From Nitrospira sp. KM1 (GTDB lineage Bacteria; Nitrospirota; Nitrospiria; Nitrospirales; Nitrospiraceae), in contig NZ_AP022671.1 of NCBI RefSeq assembly GCF_011405515.1, positions 1,054,001 through 1,118,000 on the forward strand: a stretch of DNA of 64,000 bases, in the 5' to 3' direction. The stretch's first letter is position 1. Every line of letters starts with the position of its first letter. This document shows positions 18,757 to 44,103 of the stretch, one piece after another. The notes below the pieces were generated by a model. That model was not told the origin of the DNA and made no database searches. It saw nothing but the letters and a program-made list of their open reading frames with translations. A program made the position numbers and the translations under genes.

Positions 18757-21700
18757 CTAGATCATCATCGACTGCCCCATGGGCTGGCCGATCATGTCAC
18801 CCATGGCGACTACAATTTTTCTGGGCCCTACGAACGGATCGCGTGCATGGGCAACCAGCATGTTGTCCAACATCACGATGTCGCCCTCCTGCCAGGGGAA
18901 CCGCACCGCGGTTCGTTCGTACAGCGCGCCGATTTCATCGACGATGGCATCGTCGATAGGAGAACCGTCTCCGTAGTACACGTTGCGCGGGACGGAATCT
19001 TCGTCGAGCATCGACAACAACGATTCGCGCACGGCCGGTTCGAGGCATGACACATGGTGAAGTTGAATCTGGTTGAAGAACACGGATTCCCCGGTCACAG
19101 AGTGCTCGATCACGGCCTTGCAGACCTGCCTGGTGCGGAGCACATCACGCTCCAGCCACTGACAGTCCATACCGTTTTCTGCACACAACCCCTCGACGAC
19201 CGACTTGTCGGACGTCCGGAAGAAATCCTGCCACCGGACATCGACCCCCGGCACGAAATTGCGCACATACATGAGCTGCTTCTCGCGCAGCCGGTCACGT
19301 ATTTCCGGACGGAGCCCCCGCAGCATGGCCCTGCAATCAACGAGAGGCGTCGCACCGCCTTCCACCGATGCTTGCTGACAGAAAAAGAACTGTCTCTGCG
19401 GCCAACGATGCATGTGGGAGCTTTCGTTGTGAAACAGGATCGCCTTATCGGACGGGTATGGCGTCGAGCCATAGACGTGCCGGCCGCTCTTCTCCCGCGG
19501 CAAGTCTCCGTATTCCCCGAACAGTTCGTCGCACACCGCCTCGGCCACGCTTTCGAAATCTCCCGCCGTTCGTATGGCGAAGCCGCGAAATAAGAGCGCT
19601 CCGTACTTCAGGAGTTCTTCGCGCAAGCGAGACCTGTTTTCGCGAGCCCATCCGGCAAGATCCACGTCATCCACGGCCGGACTGAACATCAAAGGGAGAG
19701 GATGCGCATCTGAGAGCAGACGACTCGCGACCAGCGTCCGTTGCGACAGATTGACGGCTTTCGGTTTGATGCGTCTAAGCCGCTGGAGCTTGAGATCGCT
19801 CTGTTGTTTGCTCTCCATAGCGCGTGATTCCTTTTCTTTCTCGGTGAGTAGGTCGAATGAATCTATCCCGGACTCCGGGGCCCGTCCGATGTGCGAGAGC
19901 AGCGTGACGAATTGCGTCGACATGCGGATGATCGTGTCAGGTTCGAAGAGATCCCGGCTGAACTTCCACACACCCTCCAACCCTTCGCTGGTTTCCTCCA
20001 TGAAGAGGCCCAGGTCAAATCGCGAAACGTCATGCTGGAACTCAAGCGCCTCGACGGTCATGCCGGGCAGTTGGAAGACCGGCGGCGGCACGTTCTGCAG
20101 GACCAACAGTACTTGGACGAGCGGATTGCGGCTCGTGTCTCTGACCAGCTTCAGCGCTTCCACGATTTTTTCGAAAGGAACGTCCTGGTGGGCGTACGCG
20201 CCCAGCGCCGTGTCGCGCACCCGTTCCAGGAGCGAGACGAAGGAAGGATTACCGCTCAAGTCCGTGCGCAGCGGCAGCAGATTGACGAAGAATCCGATCA
20301 GACGTTCGGTTTCGGCACGGTTGCGATTGGCTACGTCGGTGCCGACCAGGATATCCGTTTGTCCACTCTGGCGGGACAAGAACACTTTGAACGCCGCCAG
20401 CATGGTCATGAATAGCGTCGCCCCGTGACGCCGGCTCAACCGTTTCAATTGCCCGGCAATCTCAGACGGCACCTGAAACGTCACTCGGCCACCGTGGTAC
20501 GTTCGCCGGTCAGGCCGAGGATGGTCTGTCCGCAACTCCAGCTGTGGAGGGTTGGACCCCAGACGCTGTCTCCAATAGTGCACCTCCCGTTCGAGCACGT
20601 CGCCCTGCAGCCAGCGCCGCTGCCAGGAGGCGAAATCCGCATACTGCACCGGCAGGACCGGCAGGTCGGCCAATGCATCATTCAATGCGAGGTCCGTCCC
20701 TTTACCTGCGTCGAGCCCCGCGTAAATCGTCGCCACCTCTTCCGTCAAGAGCGCCAGCGACCAGGCATCGGCCGCAATATGATGGATGGTCACGAGCAGG
20801 ACGTGTTCCTCCATACCGGTCCTGACCAAAGTGGCGCGGATCGGCAGCTCCCCTTCCAAACTGAATGGGCGGACGGCCTCCTCTTCGGCCAGATGCCTTA
20901 CGGCTTCGCCCCATTCCTGCTCGGGCAAGCCGGACAAGTCCTCGTCCGTCATGGCGAAGGTCTCCGGCGGAACGACGGCCTGAAACGGGGCTCCGTCCGA
21001 GGACGGGAACGTCGTCCGCAAGGTCTTGTGGCGACGTATCACTTCCAGAATACTTCGCTCCAAGGCGTCTCGATCGAGCGCACCTTCAAGGCGAAGCGCA
21101 AAGGGAAGATTGTAGTTGCCCTTTTCCGGATCCATTTCCGAGAGAAACCAGATCCGCTGCTGAGCAAAGGACAACGGGGCCTGCGCTGATTCCACCATCG
21201 GCACGAGCGGTGGCGCGGCTAACTGCTCGCCATCTGCCAAGGCCCGGCCGATCGCGGCGGCAAATTCACCGACGGTCGGATGATCGAAGAGGCTGCGGAG
21301 CGGAAGTTCGATCTTGAATGACGCGCGGACCCGTGACATGACCTGCGTGGCCATCAGTGAATGCCCGCCCAGTTCGAAAAATTGGTCTTCACGGCCGACG
21401 CGGTCCATTCCGAGAATCTCCCCCCAGATGCCGGCCACGAGATCTTCAGTCGGCGTGGCAGGCGCTTGAGTCTCCGACACCGTGCGATCGTTCTCCGGTT
21501 TCGGAAGCGCCTTCCGATCAATCTTTCCGTTGGGGGTGAGCGGCAAGACGTCCAGGAAGATCACGGCCTGTGGAATCATATAGTCCGGCAGGGTCCGCTT
21601 CAGGAACCGCCGCAGTTCGTCGGCCGTCAGCTCTCGTCCGGCGACGACATAGACAGCCAGCTGCCGGCGGCCCGGCTGAATTTCCACCACCATCGCGACG

Positions 21701-24700
21701 CATCGCTCGACATCCGGATGCTGCGCCAACCGCGACTCGATCTCGCCTAACTCAATGCGAAAGCCGCGAAGCTTAACCTGATGATCCCGCCGGCCGATGA
21801 ATTCCAGTGTTCCATCCGTTCGATATCGGACCAAATCGCCCGTCCGATAGAGCCGCGTCCCGGATTCCCGCCCGTATGGATCGGGCACGAATGCCGAGGC
21901 GCTTCTTGCGGGATCATGCAGATACCCGCGACCGACTGCGATGCCGCCCACACACAGCTCGCCGGCCACACCCGCCGGAACGAGATTGAGCTGCGGATCG
22001 ACCACGTAGAGTCGAACCCGGTCTATCGGCCGGCCGATCGACACGCGTGTCTCACTGTCGTCCGGACTCTCCCTCATGCAAGCCATCGCCACGTCGTCGG
22101 AACATTCCGCCGGACCATACGCGTTCATGAGCGGGATCTGCGCATAGCGGGCAAACCATTTGCGGCACAGCTCGGGTGAAAGCGCCTCGCCTGTCGGCAG
22201 CAGCCACCGCAGTCCGTTCAGTTTCTTCCCGTCGCTTTCCAGCATTCCGGCAAGCAACGACGGCACGACTTCCAAGATCGTGACGCTCCTGGCGACCACT
22301 TCAGCCTGGAGCTGCTGCGGATCGCGTACGACCTCGTCCGGGATGATCTGCACTCTGGCACCACACAACAACGGAGTCAGAAACTGCCAGATCGAAATGT
22401 CGAAACATTGCGACGCCGTCTGACCGATGACGTCGGACGGCGAAAGCGCCAGCATCGGAATCTTGCTGAGCAGATGGTTGAGCATGCCTCGGCTTTGGAC
22501 CATCGCGCCCTTGGGAACGCCGGTCGATCCGGAGGTATAAATCACATATGCAAGCTGATCCGAGTTCGCCGTCGGCAGCGATGGATTTTCGGCGAATGGC
22601 CGCTGCCGTTCGATGGTTTCGACCGTCAAGACGGTCGGTCTCGACTGCTCCGGCAACCGCGCGACGACCGAAGCGATCAGGTCGGCATGCACGTCCGTGG
22701 TCAACACGACCTGCGCACGGCTGTTCGCCAGCACTTCCACAAGCCGCTCCTGCGGATGATGGGGATCGAGCGGAAGATAGGCGCCACCGGCCTTCAATGC
22801 CCCGACGATCATCGACAACAGGGCGAGCCCTCGCTCATCAAACACCGCCACGATGCTGTCCGTCCGGATTCCGGCTCCAAGCAGCGAATGGGCGATCCGG
22901 TTCGCCGCACGGTTCAGACCGTTGTAGGTGAGCGTCTGATCTCCGCATTGAACCGCCAGGGCCATCGGCGTCTTCACCACCTGAGCTTCGAACAGCGCGG
23001 GAAACTGTGCCTCCGCCCAAGGCTCCGGTTCGTGGTTCCACTCTTCGAGCATCCGGTGAATTTCGCGGTCGCCGAGCATCGGCAATGAATGCAGCGGCGC
23101 CTCAGGGTTCGCTGCCATGGCTTCGAGCAACGTCTTCAAATGCCCCGCCATGCATTCCACTGCGGCGTGGTCGAACAAGCGGCGATCGTAGGACAACCGC
23201 ACGCCCATCGTGTCGCCGGGATACCCGACCACGGTCATGGGGTAATTGGTGTGAACACGATCTTGATCGTATGAAACGGTCCTGTCGGCCCGTTCCTCGC
23301 CAAGGCGGGCGTCCTTGGGAGCATTCTCAAAGACCATCAGGCTTCGGAAGAGCGACTGTCCGGGTGGAATCTCGCTCCATTGTTGAATGCTGACCAACGG
23401 AGCATATTCGTACTGCCGGATCCGGTAATTTTCGGCCAGCACGTGCTTGAGCCAGCCCATCAGCGACGCCTGCGGAGAAACGGTCAGACGAAGCGGCAGC
23501 GTGTTGATGAACAATCCGATAATGCCTTCGATGCCAGGCAATTCCGTCGGCCGTCCCGCCACGGTGACGCCGAAAAGAATCTGCTCATCGCCGCTGTAAC
23601 GGCTCAGCAACAGAGCCCATGCGCCCTGGAGAAAGGTGTTCGGCGTGATCTGATACCGCTGCGCCAGTTCTTTCAATCGGACAGACACGTCCGGCGACAG
23701 CTCCATGAAGACGTCGCCGACCGAGGCCCCCGCTCCAGATTGATCGGGATCGACGCGCTCGATACCGAGCGGGGTCGGAGCAGCGAAACCCGCCAGCTCG
23801 TTCCGCCAGAACCGCTCGGCGGCGTGCTGATCCTGTCGTTGCAGCCAGGCAATGTAGTCTCTGTATGGGGCGGGCGCAGCCTGTTTCAGCTCCCGGCCTT
23901 CGACGAAGGCTTCGTAATATGCCAAGAAGTCCATCATCAGCAGGGAGAAGCACCAGTCGTCGGTCAGAATATGGTGAAAACTCCGCACGATGGCATAGCG
24001 GTCCGGCCCGCGTCGAACCAGGCGCATGCGCATCAGCGGCGCTCGGGTGAAATCGAGCCCTGCGGCCAATTCCTGTCCCATCACTTCCGTCATCTTGACC
24101 CGTTGCTGCTCTTCATCCAGATGCGTCCAATCGAGATCCTCGATGACCTCGGCGGCGTTGACGTTGCGATGCACCGTCTGGAGCGGTCGCTTGAGATCCG
24201 TCCACATGAACGAAGTCCGCAGCATCGGATGACGGTCGATGACGCACTGCCAGGCGCGGCCGAATGCGTCCCGATCGAGGCGGCCGTCCCACATGTAGAA
24301 TTGCTGCATGAGATAGATGCCGGAGCCGGGATGCATCAACGTGTGGAACAGCATGCCTTCTTGCATCGGCGACAGCGGATAACAGTCTTCGATGCCGTCC
24401 CAATCCTTCCGTAGAGGCGCAAGCTCGGCCGGCTCCAATCCAGTCAGCGGATACAATGGAAGCGCGGGAGTTTCGCCCGACTTCTGAACGGGAGAAGACT
24501 CGCCGGATGGAGAACTGCCGTTTTCCTCCCCTTCGTGGGACGCTGATGCAGGCGCCGGTGGAAGGGATTTCTGTTCGGCAGTTTTCGTCATGCTCGCCGT
24601 GGCGGCGGCCGACGCCACGGTCTGATGTTCGAATAATTGCTTCGGCGTCAGCTTCACGCCTTTCTGGTTTGCTCGCGCAATCACTTGGAGCGTCCTGATG

Positions 24701-27700
24701 GAATCCCCGCCGAGAGAAAAGAAATTGTCGTGAACGCCGACCCGCTCCACCTGCAGCACATCTTTCCAAATTCCCGCGAGAATCTCCTCGGCGGGCGTGC
24801 TTGGCGCCACGTACGCAGGTTCAGGCAATGATGCCTGCATCGGCGGCTCCGACAGCGCTGCGCGATCCAGTTTGCCGTTGACTGTCAGGGGAAACGCATT
24901 CAGCCGTACGATCGTCTGCGGCACCATATAGTCCGGAAGCTGGCGGGCTAGATCGGAACGCAAGGCATGTGGATCGACCTCCGAATTCCCCGTCACATAC
25001 GAAACGAGCTGCCGGGTTCCATCCGCCGCCTCGCGAACGAGCGTCACCGCCTCATCGACCGCCGGATGTGCCCGGAGGCGGGCATCGATTTCTCCCAACT
25101 CGATGCGAAATCCTCGAATCTTGACCTGGTGGTCGACACGACCAAGAAATTCTATTGCTCCGTCGGCTCGATACCGTGCCCGATCACCCGTGCGGTACGC
25201 GCGCGCTCCCGGTTCCGTCGCGAAGGGATCCGGCACGAACCGCTCCGCCGTCTTGTCTGATTGTCCGAAATACCCGCGCGCAACGGTGTCTCCGCCGATA
25301 TACAGTTCACCAGGGACGCCGGCAGGCGCTAATTGCAGCGCCGCATCCAACACATAGGCCCGTGCAAACGGCAATGGCCTGCCGATCGGAATGTCGCGCT
25401 CTCCACCGTTCTCGCTGCTCAAGAGATGCGTCAGTACGCCGACCGTCGTTTCCGTAGGTCCATAGTGATTGACGACGGCACAGTCCGGGGCGAGTGCTTT
25501 GATACGCGCCAACAGATCACGGCGTACCGCCTCGCCGCCCAAAATCAAGCAGCGCTTCGGCAACACCTTTTCCGGATGTTCGGCATGCAACAAGCCGCTC
25601 AGATGGCTCGGAACGATCTTGAGAACCTCGACACCTTGTCCATCTATGTAGGCAGCCATGGCATCGGGGTCGAACGCGTGATCGGCTGATATGACATGAA
25701 GCGGACGACGGGAGCAGAGCGCACCGAATAGAGCGGTATTGCCCAGGTCCGCCGCGACGGTCGAAACCGCGGCCATCCCCACGCCCTCCGGAACATTCAA
25801 ACGCTGCAACACTCCGCGCACGTATGCCGCCACCTGACGATGCTCCACGGCGACACCCTTCGGCCGGCCGGTCGAGCCGGACGTATAAATAATGTAGGCA
25901 AGATTCTGCGGACCGGCGGTATCCGCAGGCGCGCGATCGGACAGCTCCGCAATCACTTCGGCCTCTCGGTCCACCAGAACCAGCTTTTCGGCCATCGCCG
26001 ATAATCCCTCGGCAGACTTGCCGTCACTCAGCACCAGACGCGATCCGCTATCCTCGATCATGTGCGCCAACCGATTGACCGGATAGGTGGGATCGAGCGG
26101 CACGTAGGCCCCCCCGGCCTTGAGCACCGCTATGATGGCGATCACCAAATCCAGCGAGCGTTCGAAACAGAGCGCCACTGGCTCGTCTGCTCCGACGCCG
26201 CGCGCGCGGAGATATTGCGCCAGGCGGTTCGCCCGCCGGTCCAATTCCCGGCGCGTCAGGCGCTCGCTGCCGGTGATGACCGCAATGGCCTCCGGAGTTT
26301 CCTCCGCAAGCGCGGCGACTACCCGGTGGATGCACGTCGTCTCGCCGAGTGACTCCCGATTGGCGGTCTCCCATGCCTGGAGCTGCTTACGTTCCGCATC
26401 GGTGGCAAGAGGCAGGTCGCACAGCCGCGTTTCCGGTGACGCGATGATGTTGTCCAACAGCGCTTCCAGACGGACGAGCAAGTCCGACATGGCGTCGTGT
26501 GCAAACCGTCCGCACTGATACGACACGATGAACTGCATATCGATTCCAGGCTCGATCATGAGAGAGAGCGGATAATTGTTGCGGCCCGACGTCAGCGCAT
26601 ACGCGTCGCGCGATGATCCGGATGACAGCGCTTCCACCGTCACGGGGAATGTCCCATCCTGATCCGCGGCCGGGTAACTTTCGAAGACGACCAGACTGTC
26701 GAACAGGGGTTGTCCGTTCGGAATCTCACTCCATCGCTGGATATCGGCAAGCGGCGTCCATTCATATTGGCTGAGCCGGCTGTTCCGGTCTTGCAGATCA
26801 CGCAGCCAATCGGTCAACGGCATCTCCTGGCGAATCGCTACACGGACGGGCAGAGTGTTGATGAACAGGCCGATCATTTCATCCGATCCGGACAATTCGG
26901 CAGGACGGCCGGACACCGTGGCGCCGAACAGGATGTCGGTGGAACCGCTATACCGATGAAGCAACAGGGACCAGGCTCCCTGAACGATCGTATTGACCGT
27001 GAGCCGCAGTCGCTTCGCCAGCGCATGAAGGGCGGCCGTGCGCGTTTCCGTGATCCTCCTGGATTGCTCGGCGAATGGCCGCGCTTCAGGCATGGTTCCC
27101 GAAGCCGGCCCATCGAAACTCAACGGGGTCCGGCTCTGAAATCCCGCCAGGCTCTCTCTCCAGAACGATTCGGCTTCGTTCATGTTCCGTTTGCTGAGCC
27201 AGGCAATGTAGTCACGGTAGGGGCGCGGAGAAGATAACTGCACCGCCGCTCCTCGTTGTTGCCCTTCATAGGCGGTCAGCAAATCTTTGAGCACCAGGGC
27301 CAGACTCCAGCCATCCACGATCAAATGGTGATGACTGTTCACCAGTATCCACTCTGCAGCCTGCACGCGTATGAGTTGCAGACGCATGAGCGGCGCCATG
27401 AGCAGATCGATACCGGCCGTGCGGTCCCGATCCAGGAGAGCGTCAAGCTTCTGCACATGCTCGGACGCAGGAATCGCCGTCCAGTCGTGCCGTTCGATTC
27501 GAACATCGGCATGGCGTCGAACAACTTGCACGGCCTTGTCCAGGTTTTCCCACGCGAACGCAGTTCGCAGGACTGCATGGCAGTCGACCACTTGCTGCCA
27601 GGCACGCTCGAATGCCTCGATGTCGAAAGGGCCCTTGAGTGTATAGCGATACTGATAGAAATATGGGTCGGCGCCGGCGTCCGTAATCCGGTGGAAGAGC

Positions 27701-33700: not shown

Positions 33701-35653
33701 CCGCTGCGTCACCATCGCACCCTTTGGCACGCCGGTGGAGCCGGAGGTGTAAATGATGTAGGCGAGTTGGTCCGGCCGGGTTGGCCGTTCCGGATTCTCA
33801 TCGACGCCCTGTTGCGACATAGCCTCGGTAAGCGAGAGGACTGCCGGTCTTACTGATTCGGGCATAAGGGTCAGCACGCGCTCGAGCTGAGCCTTGAGGC
33901 GGCCGGAAGTCACGACGACCGGGACGCCGCTCAGTTCCAGCACTCGCGCCATGCGTGAATCGGGATACCGGGGATCGAGGGGCAGATATGCGCTTCCGGC
34001 CTTGAAGATGCCGAGGATCATCGTCACGAGATCCACTCCGCGTTCGTCGAGCACCGCCACGATGGTATCCTGTGCAACACCGGCCGCAATCAGGGAAGAA
34101 GCAATCCGGTTCGCACGCCGGTTCAACTCGGCATAGCGAAGCGGCTCTTCTCCCTCGCAGCTCACCGCAATTGAGTCCGGCGTGCGGCAGACCTGTGCTT
34201 CGAAGCGTGCCGCAAAATTTCTCTCGTCCGTCCCGGCGGCCGGCTCCGCATTCCATTCCGTGAGTAGTTTTGTGGTCTCGTCGGACGCCAGCATCGGCAA
34301 TTCCCCGATCCGGGCGTCCGGTTTGGCAATGATCCCTTCCAGCAGGCGCTTGAGATGCCCGATCATCCGCAGCACGGTGCCGGAATCGAAGAGGCGTCGG
34401 TCGTACGACAGCTTCAGTCCCAATTCCCTGCCGGGCCAGCCCATAACCGTCATGGGATAGTTCGTGTGAACCCGATACTGTTCTTCTTCGGCGCGGAACA
34501 TGATCCGGCCTTCGCAGAGGGCGGGATCCACCGGCGCGTTCTCGAAGACGAAGAGACTGTGAAAGAGCGCCTCGCCGCGCGGGATTTCGCTCGAACGCTG
34601 GATCCGCACGAGTGGCGTGTACTCGAATTGCCGCAGCCGGACGTTCTCGGCCAGCAGATCTTTCAGCCACCCGAGGACGGGACAGTCCTGAGCCACCGGC
34701 ACCCGCAGCGGCAATGTATTGATGAACAATCCCAAGACCGATTCGACGCCGATGAGTTCCGTGGGACGTCCCGCCACCGTCACGCCGAACAGCACATCGC
34801 GCTCGCCGCTGTACGCGCTCAGGAGAATCGCCCAAGCCCCTTGCACGAAGGTGTTGGGCGTCAGCCGATGCTGTTGTGCCAGCGCCGTCAATCTGGCCGT
34901 CATGGCCGCGCTGAGATGCAGACAATGGTCGGCCGCGTCTTCGTTCTGATCCGCTAATCCTTCCGGAGCCCGATCGTAGGCCAGAGGAGTAGGCGTGCGA
35001 AAATCTAGGAGATAGTCCCGCCAAAACGTATCCGCCGCATCCATGTCCCTCGTCTGCAGCCATGCGATGTAATCGCGATAGGGGCGCGGAGCCTCTGCTT
35101 CACAGGCACGGCCCGCCGCGCACGCCTCGTAATGCGCGAGAAAATCCATGAGCAAAGGGGAAATGCACCATTCGTCCAGAAGAATATGGTGAAAGCTGTG
35201 CACGAATTGCCAGGTTTGGTCCGTCAGCCTGATCAAGCGCAGCCGCATGAGCGGCGCCTTGGCAAAATCGAATCCGCTGTGCAGTTCGTCCTGCAGTATT
35301 GCATCGAGCCTGACGATTTGTTGTTCACGGCATTCGCCACGCCAATCCATCACGTCGAGCGGCACGTCGACGGCTTTATGAACCGCCTGGAGCGGACGCT
35401 TCTGGCTTTTCCAGACGAACGAGGTCCGGAGGATCGGATGTCTGGCGATGACCTGCGCCCAAGCCCGCCGGAACACATCGGGATCGACATGGCCTTCCAC
35501 GTAGTACCGGTTCTGCATGAGATAGATGCCGGTCCCCGGATTCATCAGGGTGTGGAACAGCATGCCTTCCTGCATCGGAGACAGCGGATAGATCGCCTCC
35601 AGGCTCTTCGCGGCATCGGTCTTTTTCGTCTGCGGCGGCTCGATCGTCTTCAC
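27764..35653 (-). CDS. NRPS: C-A(Dab)-T-C-A(Ser)-T-E
   Basis: 2629 aa. Order: C1 (HHILLDE near 158, with Glu in place of the motif Gly), A1 (near 637), T1 (GGHSLL near 1032), C2 (HHAIADG near 1234), A2 (near 1715), T2 (GGDSI near 2103) and a C-terminal epimerase (HHLVIDG near 2292, followed by SWRILLEDL). A1 selectivity D-I-W-E-L-T-A-D-D matches 2,4-diaminobutyrate; A2 D-V-W-H-V-S-L-I-D matches serine. The E domain should present D-Ser to the next protein. Residues about 1535-2105 (A2 and the core of T2) are encoded by DNA identical to part of the neighbouring upstream NRPS. The gene starts 8 bases after that gene, with an AGGAGA ribosome site. Confidence 0.94.
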   Translation of the reverse strand: MKTIEPPQTKKTDAAKSLEAIYPLSPMQEGMLFHTLMNPGTGIYLMQNRYYVEGHVDPDVFRRAWAQVIARHPILRTSFVWKSQKRPLQAVHKAVDVPLDVMDWRGECREQQIVRLDAILQDELHSGFDFAKAPLMRLRLIRLTDQTWQFVHSFHHILLDEWCISPLLMDFLAHYEACAAGRACEAEAPRPYRDYIAWLQTRDMDAADTFWRDYLLDFRTPTPLAYDRAPEGLADQNEDAADHCLHLSAAMTARLTALAQQHRLTPNTFVQGAWAILLSAYSGERDVLFGVTVAGRPTELIGVESVLGLFINTLPLRVPVAQDCPVLGWLKDLLAENVRLRQFEYTPLVRIQRSSEIPRGEALFHSLFVFENAPVDPALCEGRIMFRAEEEQYRVHTNYPMTVMGWPGRELGLKLSYDRRLFDSGTVLRMIGHLKRLLEGIIAKPDARIGELPMLASDETTKLLTEWNAEPAAGTDERNFAARFEAQVCRTPDSIAVSCEGEEPLRYAELNRRANRIASSLIAAGVAQDTIVAVLDERGVDLVTMILGIFKAGSAYLPLDPRYPDSRMARVLELSGVPVVVTSGRLKAQLERVLTLMPESVRPAVLSLTEAMSQQGVDENPERPTRPDQLAYIIYTSGSTGVPKGAMVTQRGMLNNMESKLSSLRIGSSDVLAQTASQCFDISVWQLLTALLCGARTHVIPDDIVREPARLLPHLENARISLFEAVPAVLQALLDLADDSPSAPELSHLRWVLPTGEALPPSVCRQWFARYPEIPLMNAYGPAECADDVAVHAIDAMPASDVNQIPIGRPIQNISLYIVNRFLALVPPGVPGELCVGGVGVGRGYLRDCVRTAESFVPNPFGGQPGARLYRTGDLARYLSDGTIEYLGRLDHQVKIRGFRIELGEIETHVDAHPSVREAAVIVREDRPGDKRLVAYVAGYDQQLLDIAQVKAALQAQLPDYMVPAIFVTLETLPRTPNGKVDRAALPAPDAEQLAAARYVPPRSATEELLAGIWADILGAERVGVEDNFFELGGHSLLATQVVSRIRSTFQIDMPLRTAFECPTVSALALVVDEIRAKGAGRAAPPLTATNRSGPAPLSFAQQRLWFLAQLDPESWFYNLSFGVRIEGHVDVQALRRAFEAVVGRHDILRARFTTIEGQLVQVVVETAPIPFETVAVGRSEDESLEACEQRLATDEAQQAFDLERGVLWRARLFELEGHRGVLRHVLIVTFHHAIADGWSLNLFLSEMITAYVELAAGRAAGLPAPALQYADYARWQRDWLKGDVLEQQLDYWKQTLAGAPALLSLPTDFPRPAVQTFRGARHAFTVPPSLTAELQVLGRRHGATLFMTLLAAFQLLLHRYSGETDLSIGTPVANRTSLEVEELIGFFVNTLVLRTNLSGDPRFVDLLERVREVVLGAQNHQDVPFEHVVDALRPARNLSHSPLFQVMFALQTLGRQTLEVPDLKIEMLEIDPGSAKFDLSLEMTLEPGGSAGGPVGLTGFFEYNTDLFEPATIARMAQHFQSVLESVVAKPQQSLAAVAVLGREERAAVVAGWNATGRRYAERGAVPEQIAAQAARTPEAVAVRLDAATLTYAELLAQANQVAWALRERGVGPEMLVGIAMERSLDLVVGLLGVLQAGAAYVPLDPSYPPERLAYMLEDSAVPVVLTQAAWQAQLPYTGLLLCLDRDRAQWAGYPTSAPPGVWADQQLAYLIYTSGSTGQPKGAGNTHGGFRNRLQWMQEAYGLTAADRVLQKTPISFDVSVWEFFWPLMVGAELVLAAPGEHKEPARLIDRIVTHQITTLHFVPPMLQALVETAGVERCTSVRQIVCSGETLPAAVVARAQAVLPGATVHNLYGPTEAAIDVTAWRCPVPAPAVIPIGRPIANTQIYVLDRHIHPVPVGVAGELYIGGEQVGRGYHGRPGLTAERFVPDALGAQPGQRLYRTGDQVRWRVDGTLEYLGRLDHQVKLRGFRIELGEIEAALLAQPGIREAVVVVRTEATGTKRLVGYVTGAGAGETATLRQGLAQRVPEYMVPAVIIALEQLPLSPNGKVDRKALPAPEAGRATASEPPATQTEARLAAIWAQVLGLVQVGRHDNFFELGGDSILVLQVISRAREAGLSLTPRHVFQHQTVAELSRMVDDKQDQTPQVEAEQGAVTGTTPLTPAQRWFFEQAWPHPHHWNQSILVTMREVPERAVLEPAIEQVLAQHDGLRTRFMTASSQAANILPAEDSTRVLSYVNLSDVPAGGEAEAVEQTAEHFQCSLHLSEGPVFKAAVFDLGKARPPRLLLVAHHLVIDGVSWRILLEDLQNAYLQQHGDQIISLPPKTTSVKYWAERLEAFAQSDRLKEELHYWTRPQQGLSLPLPVDDPAGIKDERQAQAVSSSLSEKDTTALLREVPAAYQTQISDVLLAALVQTFAEWTGRDHLRLDLEGHGREELFGDVDVSRTVGWFTSIFPVVLRLPQGSLGDVLKDVKEQLRDIPSRGTGYGVLHYLSKMPEAAELRTHPPSQLCFNYLGQIDQGTPAQSFFSLCQDSPGTEHAPSNPQRYELTLQAEIVDGRLGLTWVYGGERYRRTTIESLAASYQRNLCALIAHCSSEEAGGYTPSDFPDVAIEQGALDAILEKMEQSHAR
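29340..31050 (-). repeat. 1,711-bp identical repeat, copy 1 (Ser A domain and T core)
   Basis: The sequence is identical to 35876-37586 at a constant offset of 6536 bases, in the same orientation. I compared lines by eye, and translations in several frames on both strands are also identical. It runs, in coding sense, from the C-A linker (LAAVAVLGREERAAV) through the whole A domain to GGDSI of the T domain. It is much richer in G+C than its surroundings: 30901-30960 has 49 G/C of 60, against 37 of 60 at 27961-28020. Confidence 0.97.
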
Positions 35654-35661
35654 GCGTTCTC

Positions 35662-38600
35662 CTATCCGATCTCGTTCAATAGATTTTCCATCTCGTCGTC
35701 CGACAATTCGACGTCCGCGATACCGGATGGCGGTCTGTCGGAAACAGGCATGGCTGTGGGCGCAGCCAATACCGCCACCGCAGCCGCCGATGCGATGGTG
35801 GGCTGTTCGAAGAGCTGCTTCGGCGTGAGTTGGATGCCGTCGCGGTGAGCCCTGGCGAGAATCTGCAGGCTGTTGATCGAATCGCCGCCGAGTTCGAAGA
35901 AGTTGTCGTGGCGGCCGACCTGCACAAGCCCCAGCACCTGCGCCCAGATGGCGGCCAGCCGCGCCTCCGTCTGCGTCGCCGGCGGCTCAGAGGCCGTCGC
36001 CCGCCCCGCCTCCGGCGCCGGGAGCGCCTTGCGATCCACCTTCCCGTTCGGACTCAACGGCAGCTGCTCCAGCGCGATGATGACCGCCGGCACCATGTAC
36101 TCCGGTACGCGCTGCGCCAAGCCCTGCCGGAGGGTGGCTGTCTCTCCAGCCCCCGCTCCCGTCACATACCCCACCAGCCGCTTCGTCCCCGTCGCCTCCG
36201 TCCGCACGACCACCACCGCCTCGCGGATGCCCGGCTGCGCCAACAGCGCCGCTTCGATCTCGCCCAGCTCGATCCGGAACCCGCGGAGCTTCACCTGATG
36301 ATCGAGCCGCCCCAGATACTCCAGCGTGCCGTCGACCCGCCACCGCACTTGATCGCCCGTCCGGTACAGCCGCTGCCCCGGCTGCGCACCCAACGCATCC
36401 GGCACGAACCGCTCCGCCGTGAGCCCCGGCCTACCGTGATAGCCCCGCCCAACTTGCTCCCCCCCAATGTAGAGTTCACCCGCGACGCCGACCGGCACGG
36501 GATGGATGTGCCGGTCCAGCACATAGATCTGTGTGTTGGCGATCGGCCGCCCGATCGGAATCACCGCCGGCGCCGGCACCGGACACCTCCATGCCGTGAC
36601 GTCGATCGCCGCTTCCGTCGGCCCGTACAAGTTATGCACGGTCGCCCCCGGCAGCACCGCCTGCGCCCGCGCCACCACGGCCGCCGGCAACGTTTCGCCG
36701 CTACAGACGATCTGCCGCACGCTCGTGCACCGCTCCACCCCCGCCGTCTCCACCAACGCCTGCAGCATCGGCGGCACGAAGTGCAGCGTAGTGATCTGGT
36801 GCGTCACAATCCGGTCGATCAGCCGCGCCGGCTCCTTGTGCTCCCCCGGCGCCGCCAGCACTAATTCCGCACCCACCATCAAGGGCCAGAAGAATTCCCA
36901 TACCGACACATCGAAGCTGATCGGCGTCTTCTGCAGTACCCGGTCGGCTGCCGTCAGCCCATAGGCCTCCTGCATCCACTGCAGCCGGTTGCGGAAGCCC
37001 CCGTGCGTGTTCCCCGCCCCCTTCGGCTGCCCGGTGGACCCCGACGTATAAATCAGGTAGGCCAGCTGCTGGTCCGCCCATACCCCCGGCGGCGCACTCG
37101 TCGGATAGCCGGCCCACTGCGCCCGGTCGCGATCCAGGCACAGCAGCAACCCCGTATACGGCAGCTGGGCTTGCCACGCGGCCTGCGTCAGCACCACCGG
37201 CACGGCACTATCTTCGAGCATGTAGGCCAGCCGCTCGGGCGGATAGCTCGGATCCAGCGGCACGTAGGCGGCCCCGGCCTGCAGCACCCCCAGCAGGCCC
37301 ACCACCAAGTCCAGCGAGCGCTCCATCGCGATGCCCACCAGCATCTCCGGGCCCACGCCCCGTTCCCGCAAGGCCCACGCCACTTGGTTCGCCTGCGCGA
37401 GCAGCTCCGCATAGGTCAATGTCGCGGCGTCCAGCCGCACGGCCACCGCCTCCGGCGTCCGCGCCGCCTGCGCCGCAATCTGCTCCGGCACCGCCCCCCG
37501 CTCCGCGTACCGCCGCCCCGTCGCATTCCACCCCGCCACCACCGCCGCCCGCTCCTCCCGCCCCAGCACCGCCACCGCCGCCAGCGGCGCATCCTCCACC
37601 TCGGTCATGCCGCGGAGAAGCATATGGACATGCCTTGCCATCCGTACGGCGCCGTCGTGTTCGAAGCGGGATTTTTGATACCAGAACGACAACATCAGCT
37701 CGGCGCCCGGCATGACGTTCACCGTCAGCGGATAGTTGGTCTGCCCGTGCAACTTCACCCGTTCGACGTACAGATCCGAGATCCCTTGCTCCAAGGTTTC
37801 ATCCATCGGGTGATTGTCGAAGACGATCAGACTGTCAAACAGCGACTGGCCGCGCGGCACGTCGCTCCATGCCTGGATGTGCGCAAGCGGTGTGTGTTCG
37901 AACTCTCGCAATTCGCTGTTACGTGTGAGCAACTCGCGGAGCCATGCGGACAGCGTGAGAGCCGGAGGCACTCGAACACGAAGCGGCAACGTATTGATGA
38001 ACAGTCCGACGGCAGTTTCGATGTCCGGAATATCAGCCGATCGACCGGACACGGTCGTACCGAACAAGACGTCCTCATCGCCGCTATACCGGCTCAGCAG
38101 CAGAGCCCAGGCGCCTTGGATGATCGTATTGACCGTGACTCGATGCCTCTGTGCGCATGCGCGGATGCTGGCGGTCGTCTCCGCCGAGATCGTGACCGAG
38201 ACGGTGCCGCAGGCGCCCTCGCCGGAGGACTGTTCGGTGACCGTCTTGCCTCCCAACGCCGTCGGCGCGGTGAATCCCTTCAACGTGCGGCGCCAGAACG
38301 TTTCCGCAACCGAGCGGTTCTGACGCGCGAGCCAAGCGATGTACCGGCGATACGGGATCGCCGGAGCGAGCGATGGTTCTGCTCCGAGCTTTGCGGCCTC
38401 ATAGCACTGGAGCACTTCCCTGAGAATGATCGGCAAACACCATCCATCCATGAGAATGTGATGATGTGTCCACAGGACATCGTGCATATCCGGGGCGGTG
38501 CGGACCAGCGTGATCCTCATCAGAGGCGGGCAGGCGAAATCGAAATCAATGCGACGGTCCTCCTCCAACAGTTGCTGAAAACGCCGGCCCACTTCATCGG

Positions 38601-41600
38601 CAGGCTCATGCGCCCAGTCCAATTCGGTCCACGGCAGCTCCGCGGCCGGCGCGACAACCTGAACGGGTGTCGTCCCCTCGCGCCAAAGAAATCCGGTGCG
38701 CAACACCGCGTGCCGTGCGATGGTCCGCCGCCATGCGTTGCGAAACTCCGCCGCGTTCAACGTTCCGCATAGACGGCAGCTGAACTGTTCGATATAGACG
38801 CCGGACCCAGGAGCGTACAGGCTGTGAAACAGCAGCCCTTGCTGCAGATGACTCAAGGGGTAGGTTGTTTCGAACTCCGGATACGCCGCCCGCACCATAC
38901 CGAGCGCTTCCTCATCGACCGAAGGCTGATCCTCCGGCACCTCTCCGATAGTGAAAGCGCTCGCACCCCGTTGCGGCTGAATTTCAGCAAGCCGATGCGC
39001 CAACTCAGCCACAGTCTGCGCTTGAAACAGACAGCGCGGCGTCATGGAAAGGCCGGCCTGTTTGGCCAGGTTCACAACCTGCAAACTGAGGATGGAGTCG
39101 CCTCCGAGTTCGAAAAAGTTATCGTCGATGCCGACACGGTCGAGATCGAGCACTTCCGCCCAGATGCGGGCGAGCGCCTCCTCGCCGGCCGTTCGCGGGG
39201 CCATGTAGACACGCGGCTCTTCCTTGGCCGGCGCCGGCAGCGCCGCCCGATCCACTTTTCCATTCGGCGAACGCGGCAGCGCATCGAGCGGCACAAAGCA
39301 GGACGGAATCATCGCCTCCGGTAAATGGAGACGAAGCGCGGTGCGCCACGCATCATCGGCCTTCTTCTGTGCCGACGACGCGACCACATAGGCCGTCAGC
39401 CTCTTGCGGCCGGAGGGCTCGTCGCGGAGTACGGTCACGGCGTCGTCGACACCGGGAATCTCGCGCAGTCGCGCGTCGATTTCACCCAGTTCGATGCGGA
39501 CGCCCCGCAATTTGACTTGATGGTCCAAACGGCCGATGAATTCCAGATTGCCGTCGGCACGGAGCCGTACGAGGTCGCCGGTTCGATAGAGGCGCGCGCC
39601 CGGCTGACCACTGAAAGGGTCCGGCACGAACGATGCCGCTGTCCTGAAGGGATCGCGAAGATAGCCGCGTCCCACTGCGACGCCGGCAATGCACAGCTCG
39701 CCGGGCACACCAGCAGGAACCGGTGTGAGCCACTTATCGACAACGACGAGACGGACGTTCCTGACCGGCCGGCCGATGGGAACCGCCGCCCCGGCCGTCG
39801 GAACGGACGTGATCTCGGCCATGGCCACGTCGTCGGCGCATTCGGCCGGGCCGTAGGCATTCAGCAGCGGGACGTCGGGATACCGCTCGATCCATGCACG
39901 ACACACCGAGGCGGCAACGGCTTCACCGGTCGGCAGCATCCAGCGTAAGGCAAGAAGCCGGACCTCAGCGGACTGCTGGGCGGCTGCGAGCATCTCCTGC
40001 AGCAAAACGGGAACCGTTTCCGCAACCGTCACTCCCGACGTATCCAAACAAGCCAGCAGTGCCGAGGGATCACGCGCGACGTCGTCTTTCACGATCAGTG
40101 TCCTGCCTCCGCAGAGCAGCGCTGCAAGACACTGCCAAACGGAAATATCGAAGCAGGCCGACGCCGTTTGCGCGATGACGTCGCTGTCGGTCAGTTTCAG
40201 CATTTCGAGCTTGCTCAGGAGATGATTCATGAGCGCCAACTGTGTGACCATCGCTCCTTTGGGAATACCGGTCGAACCGGAGGTGTAGATGACGTACGCG
40301 AGTTGGTCAGGAGAGGAGCGGCGGCGTGGATTATCCCACTGGACAGGTTGCGTGCTTTGCACCGCAACCTGTTCGATGGTGAGCACCTGCACATCGACCC
40401 GCAACAGATCGGGCGTCGCGTCCATGAATCGCGCCCGGTATTTTTCGTCGGTCAACACGACCACTGCGCCGTTGGATTCCAGGTACTCGTTCCAGCGGGC
40501 AGGCGGGTGCGAAGGATCGAGGGGCAGATAGGCCGCGCCGGCCTTCAACACGCCAAGCATCATCGTGAGCAACGGCAGATCGCGATCGGTCAGCACGGCC
40601 ACGACCGAATCGCCGCCGACTTGGTGGTCCATCAACGCCCGCGCCACGCCGTTCGCCTCGCGATTGATCGCTCGATAGGAAATCGTTCGCCCGTCGCACT
40701 CCACCGCCACATTCTCCGGCGTATGCTCGACCTGCTGCTCGAAGAGATCAGCAAACGTGGCGTGTGCAGGCGGAACGACCGGTCCGATGAGAACGGTCTC
40801 CCTGCGTTCCGGTTCGGTCAGGAGAGAAAGCTCCGTCAACCGTGTGCCGGGTGAAACACCAATGCCCTCCAGCAGGCGCAGAAAATGATTGCCCATCCGG
40901 ATGATCGTCGATTCGTCGAACAGGTCGGTGTTGTATTCAAATGTCCCTTCCAATCCTTGCGCCGTTTCCGTCATATCGAGGGACAACTCGAACTTCGCTG
41001 CGGCCTGATCGACCTCCGTGATCTCGGCCTCGACACCGGGAATCCGGATGGCATCCGAGAGGGCGGTCTGGAGCACGAACATGACTTGAAACAGTGGAGA
41101 ATGGCTGAGTGCACGGGCCGGCTTCAGCACCTCGACCAATTCCTCGAATGGAAGATCCTGATGCGACTGTCCGCCTACGACAACGTCCCGTACGCGCCCA
41201 AGAAGGACAGAGAACGGTGGATTGCCGGCGAGGCTCGTCCGGAGCACCAGCGTGTTGGCAAAGAACCCGATGAGGTCTTCCGTTTCTCGCCTGGTCCGGC
41301 AGGCGACGGGAGTTCCGACACAGATATCCTCGATGCCCGTGTACCGGGACAGCAGCGTCTGAAACGCGGCCAGGAGCACCGTGAACAGCGTCGCGTTCTC
41401 CTGTCTGCCAAGCTCCCTCAACCTCATGGCGATCGGAGCGGGCACGATGAACGTATGCCGGCTGCCCGCCGACGTCTGAATTCCTCCGCGCGGCCGATCA
41501 GCCGGAAGTTCGATGACCGGCAGTTCACCTTCGAGCTGATTCTTCCAGTAGCTCAGCTGTCGTTCCCGCACATCCCCCTGCATCCAGCGCCGCTGCCAAG

Positions 41601-42183
41601 CAGCATAGTCGGCATACTGAATCGGCAGCGGTGGCAACGGCGAGGCAGAGCCAGCCCGCATGGCGGGATACAAGGCGGAGAGTTCGCGGGCAAGTATCTG
41701 AGCAGACCATCCGTCACAGACGATATGGTGCAGAGTCAGCACGAGCACGTGATCGTCGGACCGAATGGCAAACAGGCAGGCCCGCATGAGCGGACCTTGC
41801 TGCAGATCGAACGGGCGGCGCGCCTCTTCGGATGCCGCATCTTCAACCGCTTCCTTGGTTCCGGCAATGGGAACCACCCGGAGATTGATTCGGATGTCCG
41901 GTGCGATGATCTGGACCGGCTCTCCCGCTTCGTATGCGAAGGTGGTACGCAACACCTCATGCCGCTCGGCGATGGCGTTGAAGCACTTTTCCAGCGCCGC
42001 CCTGTCAAGGATACCCCGGAGCCGGACCGCAATCGCGGTGTTATAGGATGCACTCTCCGGTTCGAGCTGCGACAGGAACCACAACCTTCGTTGCGTAAAG
42101 CTCATCGGGAACACGTCGTGATCCACGGTCACTGCATCGTGTTCACCCGCACCGCTGCTTCCTGTGTGAGGTGTCACCGACAT
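35662..42183 (-). CDS. NRPS: C-A(Dab)-T-C-A(Ser)-T
   Basis: 2173 aa, the first large NRPS after the PKS. Order: C1 (HHIVCDG near 152), A1 (near 636), T1 (GGDSI near 1028), C2 (HHILMDG near 1243), A2 (near 1714), T2 (GGDSI near 2100) and a short acidic tail (LSDDEMENLLNEIG) that may dock to the next protein. A1 reads D-I-W-E-L-T-A-D-D (Dab) and A2 D-V-W-H-V-S-L-I-D (Ser). C1 should accept the acyl-aminoacyl-ketide chain from the PKS ACP. Residues about 1533-2103 are identical in DNA to the Ser module of the next gene. The start ATG overlaps the stop of the hydroxylase gene by 10 bases. Confidence 0.94.
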   Translation of the reverse strand: MSVTPHTGSSGAGEHDAVTVDHDVFPMSFTQRRLWFLSQLEPESASYNTAIAVRLRGILDRAALEKCFNAIAERHEVLRTTFAYEAGEPVQIIAPDIRINLRVVPIAGTKEAVEDAASEEARRPFDLQQGPLMRACLFAIRSDDHVLVLTLHHIVCDGWSAQILARELSALYPAMRAGSASPLPPLPIQYADYAAWQRRWMQGDVRERQLSYWKNQLEGELPVIELPADRPRGGIQTSAGSRHTFIVPAPIAMRLRELGRQENATLFTVLLAAFQTLLSRYTGIEDICVGTPVACRTRRETEDLIGFFANTLVLRTSLAGNPPFSVLLGRVRDVVVGGQSHQDLPFEELVEVLKPARALSHSPLFQVMFVLQTALSDAIRIPGVEAEITEVDQAAAKFELSLDMTETAQGLEGTFEYNTDLFDESTIIRMGNHFLRLLEGIGVSPGTRLTELSLLTEPERRETVLIGPVVPPAHATFADLFEQQVEHTPENVAVECDGRTISYRAINREANGVARALMDHQVGGDSVVAVLTDRDLPLLTMMLGVLKAGAAYLPLDPSHPPARWNEYLESNGAVVVLTDEKYRARFMDATPDLLRVDVQVLTIEQVAVQSTQPVQWDNPRRRSSPDQLAYVIYTSGSTGIPKGAMVTQLALMNHLLSKLEMLKLTDSDVIAQTASACFDISVWQCLAALLCGGRTLIVKDDVARDPSALLACLDTSGVTVAETVPVLLQEMLAAAQQSAEVRLLALRWMLPTGEAVAASVCRAWIERYPDVPLLNAYGPAECADDVAMAEITSVPTAGAAVPIGRPVRNVRLVVVDKWLTPVPAGVPGELCIAGVAVGRGYLRDPFRTAASFVPDPFSGQPGARLYRTGDLVRLRADGNLEFIGRLDHQVKLRGVRIELGEIDARLREIPGVDDAVTVLRDEPSGRKRLTAYVVASSAQKKADDAWRTALRLHLPEAMIPSCFVPLDALPRSPNGKVDRAALPAPAKEEPRVYMAPRTAGEEALARIWAEVLDLDRVGIDDNFFELGGDSILSLQVVNLAKQAGLSMTPRCLFQAQTVAELAHRLAEIQPQRGASAFTIGEVPEDQPSVDEEALGMVRAAYPEFETTYPLSHLQQGLLFHSLYAPGSGVYIEQFSCRLCGTLNAAEFRNAWRRTIARHAVLRTGFLWREGTTPVQVVAPAAELPWTELDWAHEPADEVGRRFQQLLEEDRRIDFDFACPPLMRITLVRTAPDMHDVLWTHHHILMDGWCLPIILREVLQCYEAAKLGAEPSLAPAIPYRRYIAWLARQNRSVAETFWRRTLKGFTAPTALGGKTVTEQSSGEGACGTVSVTISAETTASIRACAQRHRVTVNTIIQGAWALLLSRYSGDEDVLFGTTVSGRSADIPDIETAVGLFINTLPLRVRVPPALTLSAWLRELLTRNSELREFEHTPLAHIQAWSDVPRGQSLFDSLIVFDNHPMDETLEQGISDLYVERVKLHGQTNYPLTVNVMPGAELMLSFWYQKSRFEHDGAVRMARHVHMLLRGMTEVEDAPLAAVAVLGREERAAVVAGWNATGRRYAERGAVPEQIAAQAARTPEAVAVRLDAATLTYAELLAQANQVAWALRERGVGPEMLVGIAMERSLDLVVGLLGVLQAGAAYVPLDPSYPPERLAYMLEDSAVPVVLTQAAWQAQLPYTGLLLCLDRDRAQWAGYPTSAPPGVWADQQLAYLIYTSGSTGQPKGAGNTHGGFRNRLQWMQEAYGLTAADRVLQKTPISFDVSVWEFFWPLMVGAELVLAAPGEHKEPARLIDRIVTHQITTLHFVPPMLQALVETAGVERCTSVRQIVCSGETLPAAVVARAQAVLPGATVHNLYGPTEAAIDVTAWRCPVPAPAVIPIGRPIANTQIYVLDRHIHPVPVGVAGELYIGGEQVGRGYHGRPGLTAERFVPDALGAQPGQRLYRTGDQVRWRVDGTLEYLGRLDHQVKLRGFRIELGEIEAALLAQPGIREAVVVVRTEATGTKRLVGYVTGAGAGETATLRQGLAQRVPEYMVPAVIIALEQLPLSPNGKVDRKALPAPEAGRATASEPPATQTEARLAAIWAQVLGLVQVGRHDNFFELGGDSINSLQILARAHRDGIQLTPKQLFEQPTIASAAAVAVLAAPTAMPVSDRPPSGIADVELSDDEMENLLNEIG
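35876..37586 (-). repeat. 1,711-bp identical repeat, copy 2 (Ser A domain and T core)
   Basis: This is the partner of 29340-31050. Both copies break at the same two places: just after the C domain and at the Ser-Ile of the T domain GGDSI motif. Sequence outside the break points differs fully between the two genes (C domain upstream; T-domain tail and E or docking tail downstream), so only the A-T unit was copied. Confidence 0.97.
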
Positions 42184-43211
42184 GGATGCTGCGCTCCATA
42201 GGGTTCGGCCATGGCCACGAGAATTCGTCTCGGCCCCTTGAACGGCATCCGTCCGTGGGCCGTCAGCATGTTGTCGAGCATCAGCACGTCTCCTTTACAC
42301 CACGGAAATCGCACCGCCGTCCGGCGATAGACGTCACGGACTTCGTCGAGCGTCTCGGTTTCGATCGGACTGCCGTCGCCGAAGTACGCGTTGCGAGGCA
42401 GGTCCTCTTCGCTCACTGCGCACAGCAACGCTTCTCGAACCAACATTTCCAAATTTGAGATGTGGAACAGGTGCGCCTGGTTGAACCAGACCGATTCTCC
42501 TGTCTGCGGATGGACCGCGACCGCCTGCGCGATCTGTTTAGTCCGGAGTTCCCCGTCCTCTTTCCATTCATAGAGGATGCCGTTCTGACGGCAAAACGCT
42601 TCGACGGTCTTCCGATCCGTCGTATTGAAGACCTTCTCCCACGGGACATCGAGCCCGTTACCGTAGTTGCGCACATACATCACACCCTTGCTGATGAACC
42701 GGTCGCGGATCGGGGGCGGGATCAACTCGAAGACGCGGCGGCTGTCGGCAATCGGCGTGTCTCCGCCTTCGGGAGACGCCTCGGCACAATAGAACCAAAT
42801 CTTCATCGGCCACTCGGTCGTGTAGGCCATCTCGTTGTGCAACGGGATGGATTGATGCGGCGGATACTCCGTGGAGGTGTAGATCTGGTTTTGGACTTGG
42901 GAGCGCGGGGTCGAACCGAAATCATAGGTTGACAGATCCCGGCGGACCGTCCTGACGACGAACTCGAAGTCTTCGACCGAAGCTACGGGAAAATTGCGGA
43001 ACAGCACCGCGCCCGAACCGGACAGCAGCGTCTCCGCTGAACGTGCAATGACGCCGGCATAGTCCCGGAGCGGCCGCACGGACTTTGGTGTCACGGCCGT
43101 CGGAAGCCCCTCTCCAGGAAGGAGCGGACCGGTTTCATACCACTGTGTGCCGGTCGATTCAGTTGTCGTGTCTGTGTCCTCAATCGGTGCGGTCTCAGGC
43201 TGAGTGTTCAT
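42174..43211 (-). CDS. Stand-alone TauD/SyrP-type Fe(II)/2-oxoglutarate hydroxylase (aspartyl beta-hydroxylase candidate)
   Basis: 345 aa. Non-heme iron dioxygenase fold with the H-N-E ligand motif (LHNEMAYT), a distal His (DNMLTAHGRMPF) and the 2-oxoglutarate-binding Arg just after (GPRRILVAM). It resembles the dioxygenase domain fused to the NRPS at 18757-27774 (shared 'GDGSPI' and 'RTAVRFPW' segments). Free enzymes of this kind in siderophore clusters (TbetaH-Asp type) hydroxylate Asp bound to an NRPS carrier domain, giving L-erythro beta-hydroxy-Asp. The expected target here is the Asp module at the start of that same NRPS. The start at 43211 follows GAAGAGGTG. A 133-base gap separates it from the thioesterase gene. 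Confidence 0.88.
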   Translation of the reverse strand: MNTQPETAPIEDTDTTTESTGTQWYETGPLLPGEGLPTAVTPKSVRPLRDYAGVIARSAETLLSGSGAVLFRNFPVASVEDFEFVVRTVRRDLSTYDFGSTPRSQVQNQIYTSTEYPPHQSIPLHNEMAYTTEWPMKIWFYCAEASPEGGDTPIADSRRVFELIPPPIRDRFISKGVMYVRNYGNGLDVPWEKVFNTTDRKTVEAFCRQNGILYEWKEDGELRTKQIAQAVAVHPQTGESVWFNQAHLFHISNLEMLVREALLCAVSEEDLPRNAYFGDGSPIETETLDEVRDVYRRTAVRFPWCKGDVLMLDNMLTAHGRMPFKGPRRILVAMAEPYGAQHPCR

Positions 43212-43344: not shown

Positions 43345-44103
43345 TCACACCTGTGCCGTTGCTCTGGTGCAAACCAGCGAGAGAGCATCCAGCACCGCCG
43401 TCTGCGAACTCCGTACAAAAAAATGGTCGCCCTGGAACATGGTCCATTCGAATGATCCGTTGGTATGCCTGCGCCAGCCTTCGAGCTTGGCAAAATCGAC
43501 TTCCCTGTCATCCATCCCACCGAAACAGGAAATCGGACAGTCGAGCGGCGGTTCCTCCCTGTACTCGTACGTATCCCGAAGCGCGAAGTCGGCGCGGAGC
43601 ACCGGCAGCAGCAACTGCATCAGTTCCGGATGTTCCAACACCTCCTTCGGGGTGCCGTTGAACCGCCGCATGTGCTCCAGAAACTCAGCGTCCGGAAGAT
43701 CGTAGAGCAGTTCGCCTATCGACGATTGGGGCGCCGGACAACCGGACACGAACAGATGGACCGGCTCGAAGCCATAGCGCCTTCGCAATTCCCGCGTGAG
43801 TTCGAACGCGATCAGCCCGCCGATGCTGTGGCCGAATAGGACGATCGGCCGGTCGAGGACACCCGTGATCGCTTCGGCAAGCTCATCGACCACGTCCCTC
43901 AAATCACGGATCGGTTCCTCCTTCATGCGGCCTTCACGGCCCGGCAACTGTACCGCGCATAATTCGATGTTCGATGGAAGTTCCTGCGCCCAGGACCGGA
44001 ACATCGCCGGTCCGCCTCCCGCATAGGGAATTCCGACGACGCGCACGCCTTCTGCGCGGCGGCAGGTGACGATCCATGACTGCCGACCGGCCGTGGTCAG
44101 CAT
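43345..44103 (-). CDS. Type II thioesterase
   Basis: 252 aa, alpha/beta hydrolase. Catalytic Ser lies in GHSIGG (about residue 92), with Asp in FGGMDDREV and His in GDHFF near the C-terminus; the N-terminal IPYAGGG motif is typical. Type II thioesterases of NRPS clusters remove wrong or stalled acyl groups from T domains. ATG 44103 is chosen; it overlaps the MbtH stop by 7 bases (ATGCTGA). The longer frame to 44262 lies inside the MbtH gene. Confidence 0.92.

Follow-up and report, generated by a model that had tools for sequence, protein, structure and literature searches.

Two aspartyl beta-hydroxylases of distinct classes in a predicted Nitrospira siderophore assembly line point to hydroxyaspartates of opposite C3 configuration

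Can one assembly line install beta-hydroxyaspartate (OH-Asp) in both C3 configurations? This question is raised by a nonribosomal peptide synthetase (NRPS) cluster in Nitrospira sp. KM1, which we analyzed in a window of 64,000 nucleotides (contig NZ_AP022671.1, positions 1,054,001 to 1,118,000). Nitrospira are the dominant nitrite oxidisers in water treatment and in many natural settings, and siderophores that contain OH-Asp can allow light-driven reduction of the iron they bind. Conservation of such a pathway would matter for iron uptake and release by nitrifiers, and the cluster is a clean genetic test case for opposite C3 control within one assembly line. An initial annotation had noted one free TauD/SyrP-like enzyme, another fused to the C-terminal end of an NRPS (about 18757-19700), and exactly two Asp-type adenylation (A) domains, from which it predicted two OH-Asp residues of opposite C3 configuration. 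All three features were recovered (Table 1). The free enzyme, P0001, is a 345-residue open reading frame (ORF) with a Pfam TauD score of 162 bits, the fused domain (160 bits) extends to position 19746, and two of the nine A domains that we read carry an Asp code.

The two hydroxylases share 45% identity and are the only P0001 relatives in the whole genome. Both keep the HxE...H motif intact (H125/E127/H319 in the free enzyme and H2795/E2797/H2989 in the fused enzyme), and these columns are invariant across 12 aligned hydroxylases from named clusters and the window. In the same alignment, the class motifs read YTSTEYP, LHNEMAY and WFNQAHLFH in the free enzyme and YGSTPYP, FHNESSH and FFNQIQLHH in the fused one. 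No NCBIfam model reached its cut-off for either hydroxylase, and the PDB held distant relatives only, such as 1y0z and 9yut.

The enzymes were placed in a quick tree of 128 rows, obtained after removal of 4 duplicate rows, and in a careful, unrooted tree of 60 rows picked by hand from the 128. The 60-row tree split the IbetaH and TbetaH classes with a support of 100/100, and the 128-row tree was concordant. The free enzyme lies inside an 11-row TbetaH clade (100/100) that also contains the free enzyme encoded in a cupriachelin-type Cupriavidus cluster (L089) and MobD of tistrellabactin, the nearest relative of the free window enzyme with a measured product, which is L-erythro-OH-Asp at a DLTKVGHVGK module (PMC10391617). 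The fused enzyme lies on the 33-row IbetaH side (100/100) with CcsFGH of cyanochelin B, which has been assigned to L-threo (PMC12628792). The reference assignments of L089 and of the AltH-like locus L081 were made by kinship and not from the measured strain. Neither window enzyme falls inside the His-type clade of the 60-row tree (9 rows, 100/99), which was named from enzymes near His-coded modules, the neighbouring module having been read for part of its members.

The initial annotation had taken the class from the fusion state, and had expected L-threo from fused and L-erythro from free enzymes. Both rules agree with the class placement of the window enzymes, but neither holds generally. The free enzyme of cyanochelin B, together with an epimerase, leads to D-threo (PMC12628792), and in Acidobacteria, Chloroflexi and other groups class-I enzymes are also encoded by separate genes. 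The prediction of opposite C3 configurations is thus carried by tree placement and partner domains rather than by fusion alone, which we rejected as a class predictor. Of 86 class-I rows, 14 do not lie in a long upstream frame, some of them perhaps because the contig ends there, and the Trichormus enzyme L110, on the other side of the tree from class-I, is within a long frame. Such class-I counts are not a random sample since the 80 loci studied are the top 80 of 574 in similarity to the fused enzyme. As a separate observation, free class-I hydroxylase genes were found in L026, L030, L040, L047, L050, L051, L057, L062, L067 and L082, which belong to Acidobacteria, Chloroflexi and an actinomycete; in L040, L051 and L067 the gene is followed by an A domain coded DMPHIGFVWK.

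A-domain codes were read from an alignment anchored on motif positions, and condensation (C) and carrier (T) domains were typed with motif and regular-expression rules that are in part our own (FH, QxRxW, GGDSI, GGHSL and HHxxxD). The term interface domain and its definition reportedly go back to Reitz et al. in 2019, and are used here as relayed by citing papers. Besides the two Asp domains, we read four Dab-like domains (DIWELTADDK), two Ser-like domains (DVWHVSLIDK) and one unassigned domain (DVENIGAITK). We take the first of these codes to specify diaminobutyrate (Dab), a reading accompanied by a Dab transaminase above its NCBIfam cut-off in the cluster, and the second presumably specifies Ser. 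The Asp codes are DLTKIGHVGK in P0002 and DLTKVGHVGK in P0005, the latter a published Asp code (PMC12283262, PMC10391617).

The cluster encodes, as its sequence establishes, two TauD hydroxylases of distinct classes and two Asp modules with differing partner domains. In P0002, the Asp1 module has a canonical C domain with HHLIVDG before the A domain, no interface domain, and a GGDSI carrier after the A domain, a carrier type that has been linked to stand-alone, TbetaH hydroxylases (PMC10391617). Its pairing with the free enzyme was assigned by exclusion. The IbetaH domain forms the NRPS C-terminus (residues 2690-3018 of 3018), and the Asp2 module of P0005, its proposed substrate module, opens with the only interface domain in the window, whose C-domain profile score is 130 as against about 580-640 for the normal C domains of the window. 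Other loci display the same association. Among 72 fused class-I rows, an A domain could be read within 4 kb downstream in 60 and was Asp-coded in 60/60, and none was read in the other 12. The condensation-like domain ahead of the A domain was without HHxxxD in 65/65 modules after fused class-I enzymes (the window and four added loci included), whereas control modules had the motif in 165/195 cases and were without it in 30/195. Since 19 of these 30 are Asp, 5 His-coded and 2 DATK-type modules, loss of HHxxxD marks hydroxylated modules and not random decay. In potashchelin, the fused enzyme sits on a protein that contains no Asp module, and the Asp that follows was measured as L-threo (PMC7100376).

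We propose that the free TbetaH enzyme works in trans; its substrate would be Asp at the GGDSI carrier of P0002 module 1 and its product 3R-hydroxy-Asp. The C-terminal IbetaH domain of P0002 would span the protein junction, dock on the interface domain of P0005 and hydroxylate Asp on the carrier of that module to the 3S (L-threo) product, and the C domain just ahead of the fused enzyme, in which the His motif is present, would make the Dab-Asp bond. The opposite C3 configurations predicted at the outset, 3R through the free enzyme and 3S through the fused one, are well supported by the tree and the partner domains. The reading as a whole, a lipopeptide siderophore line in which the free enzyme gives 3R at Asp1 and the fused enzyme gives 3S at Asp2, appears very probable to us.

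The C2 centers were considered next to these assignments. Residue 2 should be L because it sits on a GGHSL carrier and a QxRxW-type C domain comes next; 105/111 of the QxRxW-type C domains that have a same-ORF predecessor come after GGHSL. For residue 1 we lean towards L-erythro, by analogy with cupriachelin and tistrellabactin, because module 1 has no epimerase (E) domain. Alike layouts without E and with a known product lead to L-erythro, directly in tistrellabactin and by way of a related cluster with modules matching the residues in cupriachelin; in cyanochelin B an E domain follows and the residue is D-threo. With the same enzymes and the same pairing, however, a dual C domain after Asp1 might epimerise C2 of residue 1, so that the peptide would lack erythro residues and contain D-threo (2R,3R) together with L-threo (2S,3S), both threo enantiomers being found in cyanochelin B (PMC12628792). 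The C domain in question is of the FH type, and the FH[ST]-type C domains with a same-ORF predecessor in the loci examined come after E in 10/29 cases, after GGDSI in 19/29 and after GGHSL in 0/29. Given the GGDSI carrier and the FH-type domain, a pairing seen elsewhere with D residues, D-threo had been our leading reading for residue 1; it was dropped after the tistrellabactin and cupriachelin-type checks, in which the same layout without E goes with measured L-erythro, and is kept as a serious but tentative alternative. It also bears on how the prediction should be judged. The initial annotation held that a single diastereomer in the product would speak against opposite C3, which is too strict given that D-threo and L-threo are opposite at C3 yet are one diastereomer.

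The domain order suggests a lipopeptide siderophore assembly line. It runs FAAL-ACP-C-A, A C-terminal part and T, KS-AT-KR-ACP, Dab-Ser, Dab-Ser-E, Asp-Dab and Asp-Dab-thioesterase (TE), and the expected chain would be acyl-X-(polyketide C2)-Dab-Ser-Dab-Ser-OHAsp(3R)-Dab-OHAsp(3S)-Dab, in which at least the two hydroxy-Asp residues would bind Fe(III). The surrounding genes fit a siderophore, with a Dab transaminase, a peptide exporter, an MbtH-like protein, a TonB receptor, FecR and a sigma factor, and the cluster shares with the cupriachelin kind the FAAL start, the two Asp modules with hydroxylases, the TonB/FecR/sigma set and the exporter. A whole-genome search for ornithine N-oxygenase (PF13434) returned one 20-bit match far from the cluster, which passes the cut-off only together with its neighbours. 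With no convincing ornithine N-oxygenase in the genome, no hydroxamate is expected. This finding, the four Dab modules and the presence of just two obvious bidentate ligands would also suit a cationic, Dab-rich lipopeptide with a role other than iron binding, in which hydroxy-Asp is structural. We consider such a product unlikely, since the TonB receptor, FecR and an ECF sigma factor stand directly upstream, the exporter belongs to a family (TIGR01194) used for siderophore-like peptides, and the nearest cluster layouts are those of siderophores. Least probable is that one enzyme hydroxylates both Asp residues, or that the fused domain acts in cis on Asp1, with the other enzyme idle or acting on Dab or Ser: free enzymes do work in trans and either carrier is within reach, but both active sites are intact, the interface domain stands solely ahead of Asp2, the downstream A domain is Asp in all readable cases given above, and the second hydroxylase is fused in 19 of the 21 family genomes that have one.

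Several points weigh against our assignment of a siderophore with 3R, L-erythro residue 1 and 3S residue 2. The C domain after Asp1 groups with the C domain after a GGDSI Ser module without E (Shimodaira-Hasegawa-like approximate likelihood ratio test, SH-aLRT, 97), and residue 1 would be D-threo if both belong to the dual, epimerising kind. In tistrellabactin, an L residue and a D residue without E are each followed by an FH-type C domain. The module served by CcsK, a free enzyme from cyanobacteria, is also without HHxxxD, and the rule that a free enzyme goes with no interface domain is therefore not general. The L081 and L089 references were assigned by kinship. Lastly, a third bidentate ligand is unexplained when no convincing ornithine N-oxygenase is at hand.

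The two-class arrangement itself is not new, because it has been published for at least three siderophores, cupriachelin (PMC10484230), potashchelin (PMC7100376) and cyanochelin B (PMC12628792); it is also present in Janthinobacterium, Eleftheria, Azospirillum and Gloeothece records. The claim of the initial annotation that cupriachelin has both classes was borne out, as L-threo and L-erythro OH-Asp are described for it (PMC10484230). Like the window, the cupriachelin-type Cupriavidus cluster has a free TbetaH beside C-A(Asp)-T(GGDSI)-C-A(Dab)-T-C-IbetaH, with interface-A(Asp)-T(GGHSL) next in line. That line continues to an Orn-like module with E, and cupriachelin has D-Orn, whereas the window ends in Dab-TE, has no convincing ornithine N-oxygenase and carries an extra acyl-X-polyketide-Dab-Ser-Dab-Ser in front. 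Potashchelin (Halomonas sp. MG34) also combines a stand-alone and a C-terminally fused TauD enzyme (PtcA and PtcB), and the module that follows the fused enzyme supplies its L-threo residue (PMC7100376), as proposed for the window. It differs in its nine modules, its cyclic N-OH-Orn and the location of the fused enzyme on the loading protein. Cyanochelin B (Leptolyngbya) resembles the window in its FAAL and polyketide synthase (PKS) start, one free and one fused enzyme (CcsK and CcsFGH) and an interface-Asp module after the fused protein; unlike the window, it has interface-like and E domains in the CcsK module, leading to D-threo, a thiazoline unit and no Dab. Tistrellabactin, in turn, has no fused Asp enzyme and uses diazeniumdiolate and hydroxamate ligands. 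What is new here is Nitrospira as the producer, the missing hydroxamate and a His unit in place of the Asp unit in relatives. At the level of literature listings we found no published Nitrospira siderophore, and the word occurs 0 times in the main text of the KM1 genome paper (PMC7522533).

A relative of the free enzyme (E <= 1e-30) was found in 25 of 175 Nitrospiraceae genomes, 21 of which have a second hydroxylase (19 fused, 2 free); four genomes, including the one-contig genome G038, have the free enzyme alone. For the 18 pairs on one contig, the distance is 23.3-23.6 kb in 15 and 16.8-16.9 kb in 2, and in 3 of the 21 genomes the two hydroxylases are on different contigs. G032 is the remaining one-contig case, with 755 kb between its free and fused hydroxylases as compared to 23 kb in most relatives.

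Two genomes, G106 and G107, depart from this pattern. Their NRPS ahead of the junction is without the terminal hydroxylase, a free His-type enzyme comes next (L099:4826-5818; L106), and the following NRPS opens with a domain without HHxxxD, a diverged interface domain, and then an A domain coded DSALIAEVWK, a His code able to accept beta-hydroxylation (PMC12283262). Over this region (L099:4826-13047 and L106), in clusters that correspond to the others elsewhere, the fused Asp hydroxylase and its Asp module are replaced by a free His-type enzyme and a His-coded module. When G107 was compared to G061 of the same genus, the NRPS after the junction showed 69-87% identity in its later part and 21-35% in its first ~800 residues, and the C domain ahead of the junction fell to 35-55%. 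Of 79 genomes in that genus, 2 carry the His-type enzyme at 95-100% identity; the remaining matches are the two Asp-type enzymes at 42-53%. These data fit an exchange in which hydroxylase, docking domain and A domain moved together. The exchange unit in Nitrospiraceae probably comprises the C domain that precedes the fused enzyme, the hydroxylase, the interface domain and the A core, so that the second ligand in G106 and G107 would change from L-threo-OH-Asp to beta-hydroxy-His. Taken jointly with this exchange unit, we somewhat favor the view that the window product is a hydroxamate-free relative of cupriachelin. The His-for-Asp relatives would then be a natural example of a joint swap of hydroxylase, docking domain and A domain, and as such useful for NRPS engineering.

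Table 1. Cluster features in the Nitrospira sp. KM1 window, with predicted functions and positions counted from the first base of the window
Feature	Position	Strand	Evidence or remark
Free aspartyl beta-hydroxylase P0001, 345 aa, TbetaH-Asp class, expected 3R	42174-43211	-	Pfam TauD, tree
Fused aspartyl beta-hydroxylase domain, IbetaH-Asp, residues 2690-3018 of P0002, expected 3S	18757-19746	-	Pfam TauD, tree
NRPS P0002, 3018 aa: C-A(Asp1)-T(GGDSI)-C-A(Dab)-T(GGHSL)-C-IbetaH	18757-27813	-	
Asp1 A domain (AMP-binding core), DLTKIGHVGK	25267-26307	-	Pfam residues 503-849; proposed substrate module of free enzyme
NRPS P0005: interface domain-A(Asp2)-T(GGHSL)-C-A(Dab)-T-TE	11571-18746	-	
Interface domain, condensation-like without HHxxxD, P0005 start	about 17421-18719	-	Proposed docking place of fused enzyme
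Asp2 A domain, DLTKVGHVGK	15924-17340 (approximate; upper bound estimated)	-	AMP-binding_C residues 867-941
NRPS P0003: C-A(Dab)-T-C-A(Ser)-T-E	27764-35653	-	
NRPS P0004: C-A(Dab)-T-C-A(Ser)-T	35662-42183	-	
Type II thioesterase (true start probably further in)	43345-44262	-	Pfam PF00975
MbtH-like protein	44178-44333 (genome 1098178-1098333)	-	PF03621, 83.7 bits
Penicillin-amidase type acylase	44367-46862	-	Weak PvdQ match, far under PvdQ cut-off
Diaminobutyrate--2-oxoglutarate transaminase (Dab supply)	46751-48175	-	NF005393, 753 bits, over cut-off
Cyclic peptide export ABC transporter	48188-49894	-	TIGR01194, 497 bits, over cut-off
PKS module KS-AT-KR-ACP	49935-54503	-	
Second half of split first module: A C-terminal subdomain and T	54500-55150	-	
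FAAL-ACP-C-A, first half of split A domain, DVENIGAITK	55150-60147	-	
TonB-dependent receptor, runs past window end; FecR and ECF sigma factor next upstream	62007-63992	-	

All cluster genes are on the minus strand, and the free hydroxylase gene shares 10 bases with the start of the next NRPS gene (42183). At 54500-60147, the A domain of the first module is divided between two genes with the junction TAATG. The same split is found in G020, and not in G046, G107 or G061; its recurrence in G020 makes a sequencing error unlikely. A perfect direct repeat of 1,711 bases (29340-31050 and 35876-37586) covers the Ser modules of P0003 and P0004, and therefore suggests recent duplication or gene conversion of these modules. 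Approximately 5.7 kb beyond the window end, upstream of the siderophore receptor, lies a 1527-aa molybdopterin oxidoreductase ORF with Fe-S domains (L104:9726-14309), possibly the long NxrA described in the KM1 paper. Outside the window, the genome has a second NRPS of about 3100 aa at 337410-341924.

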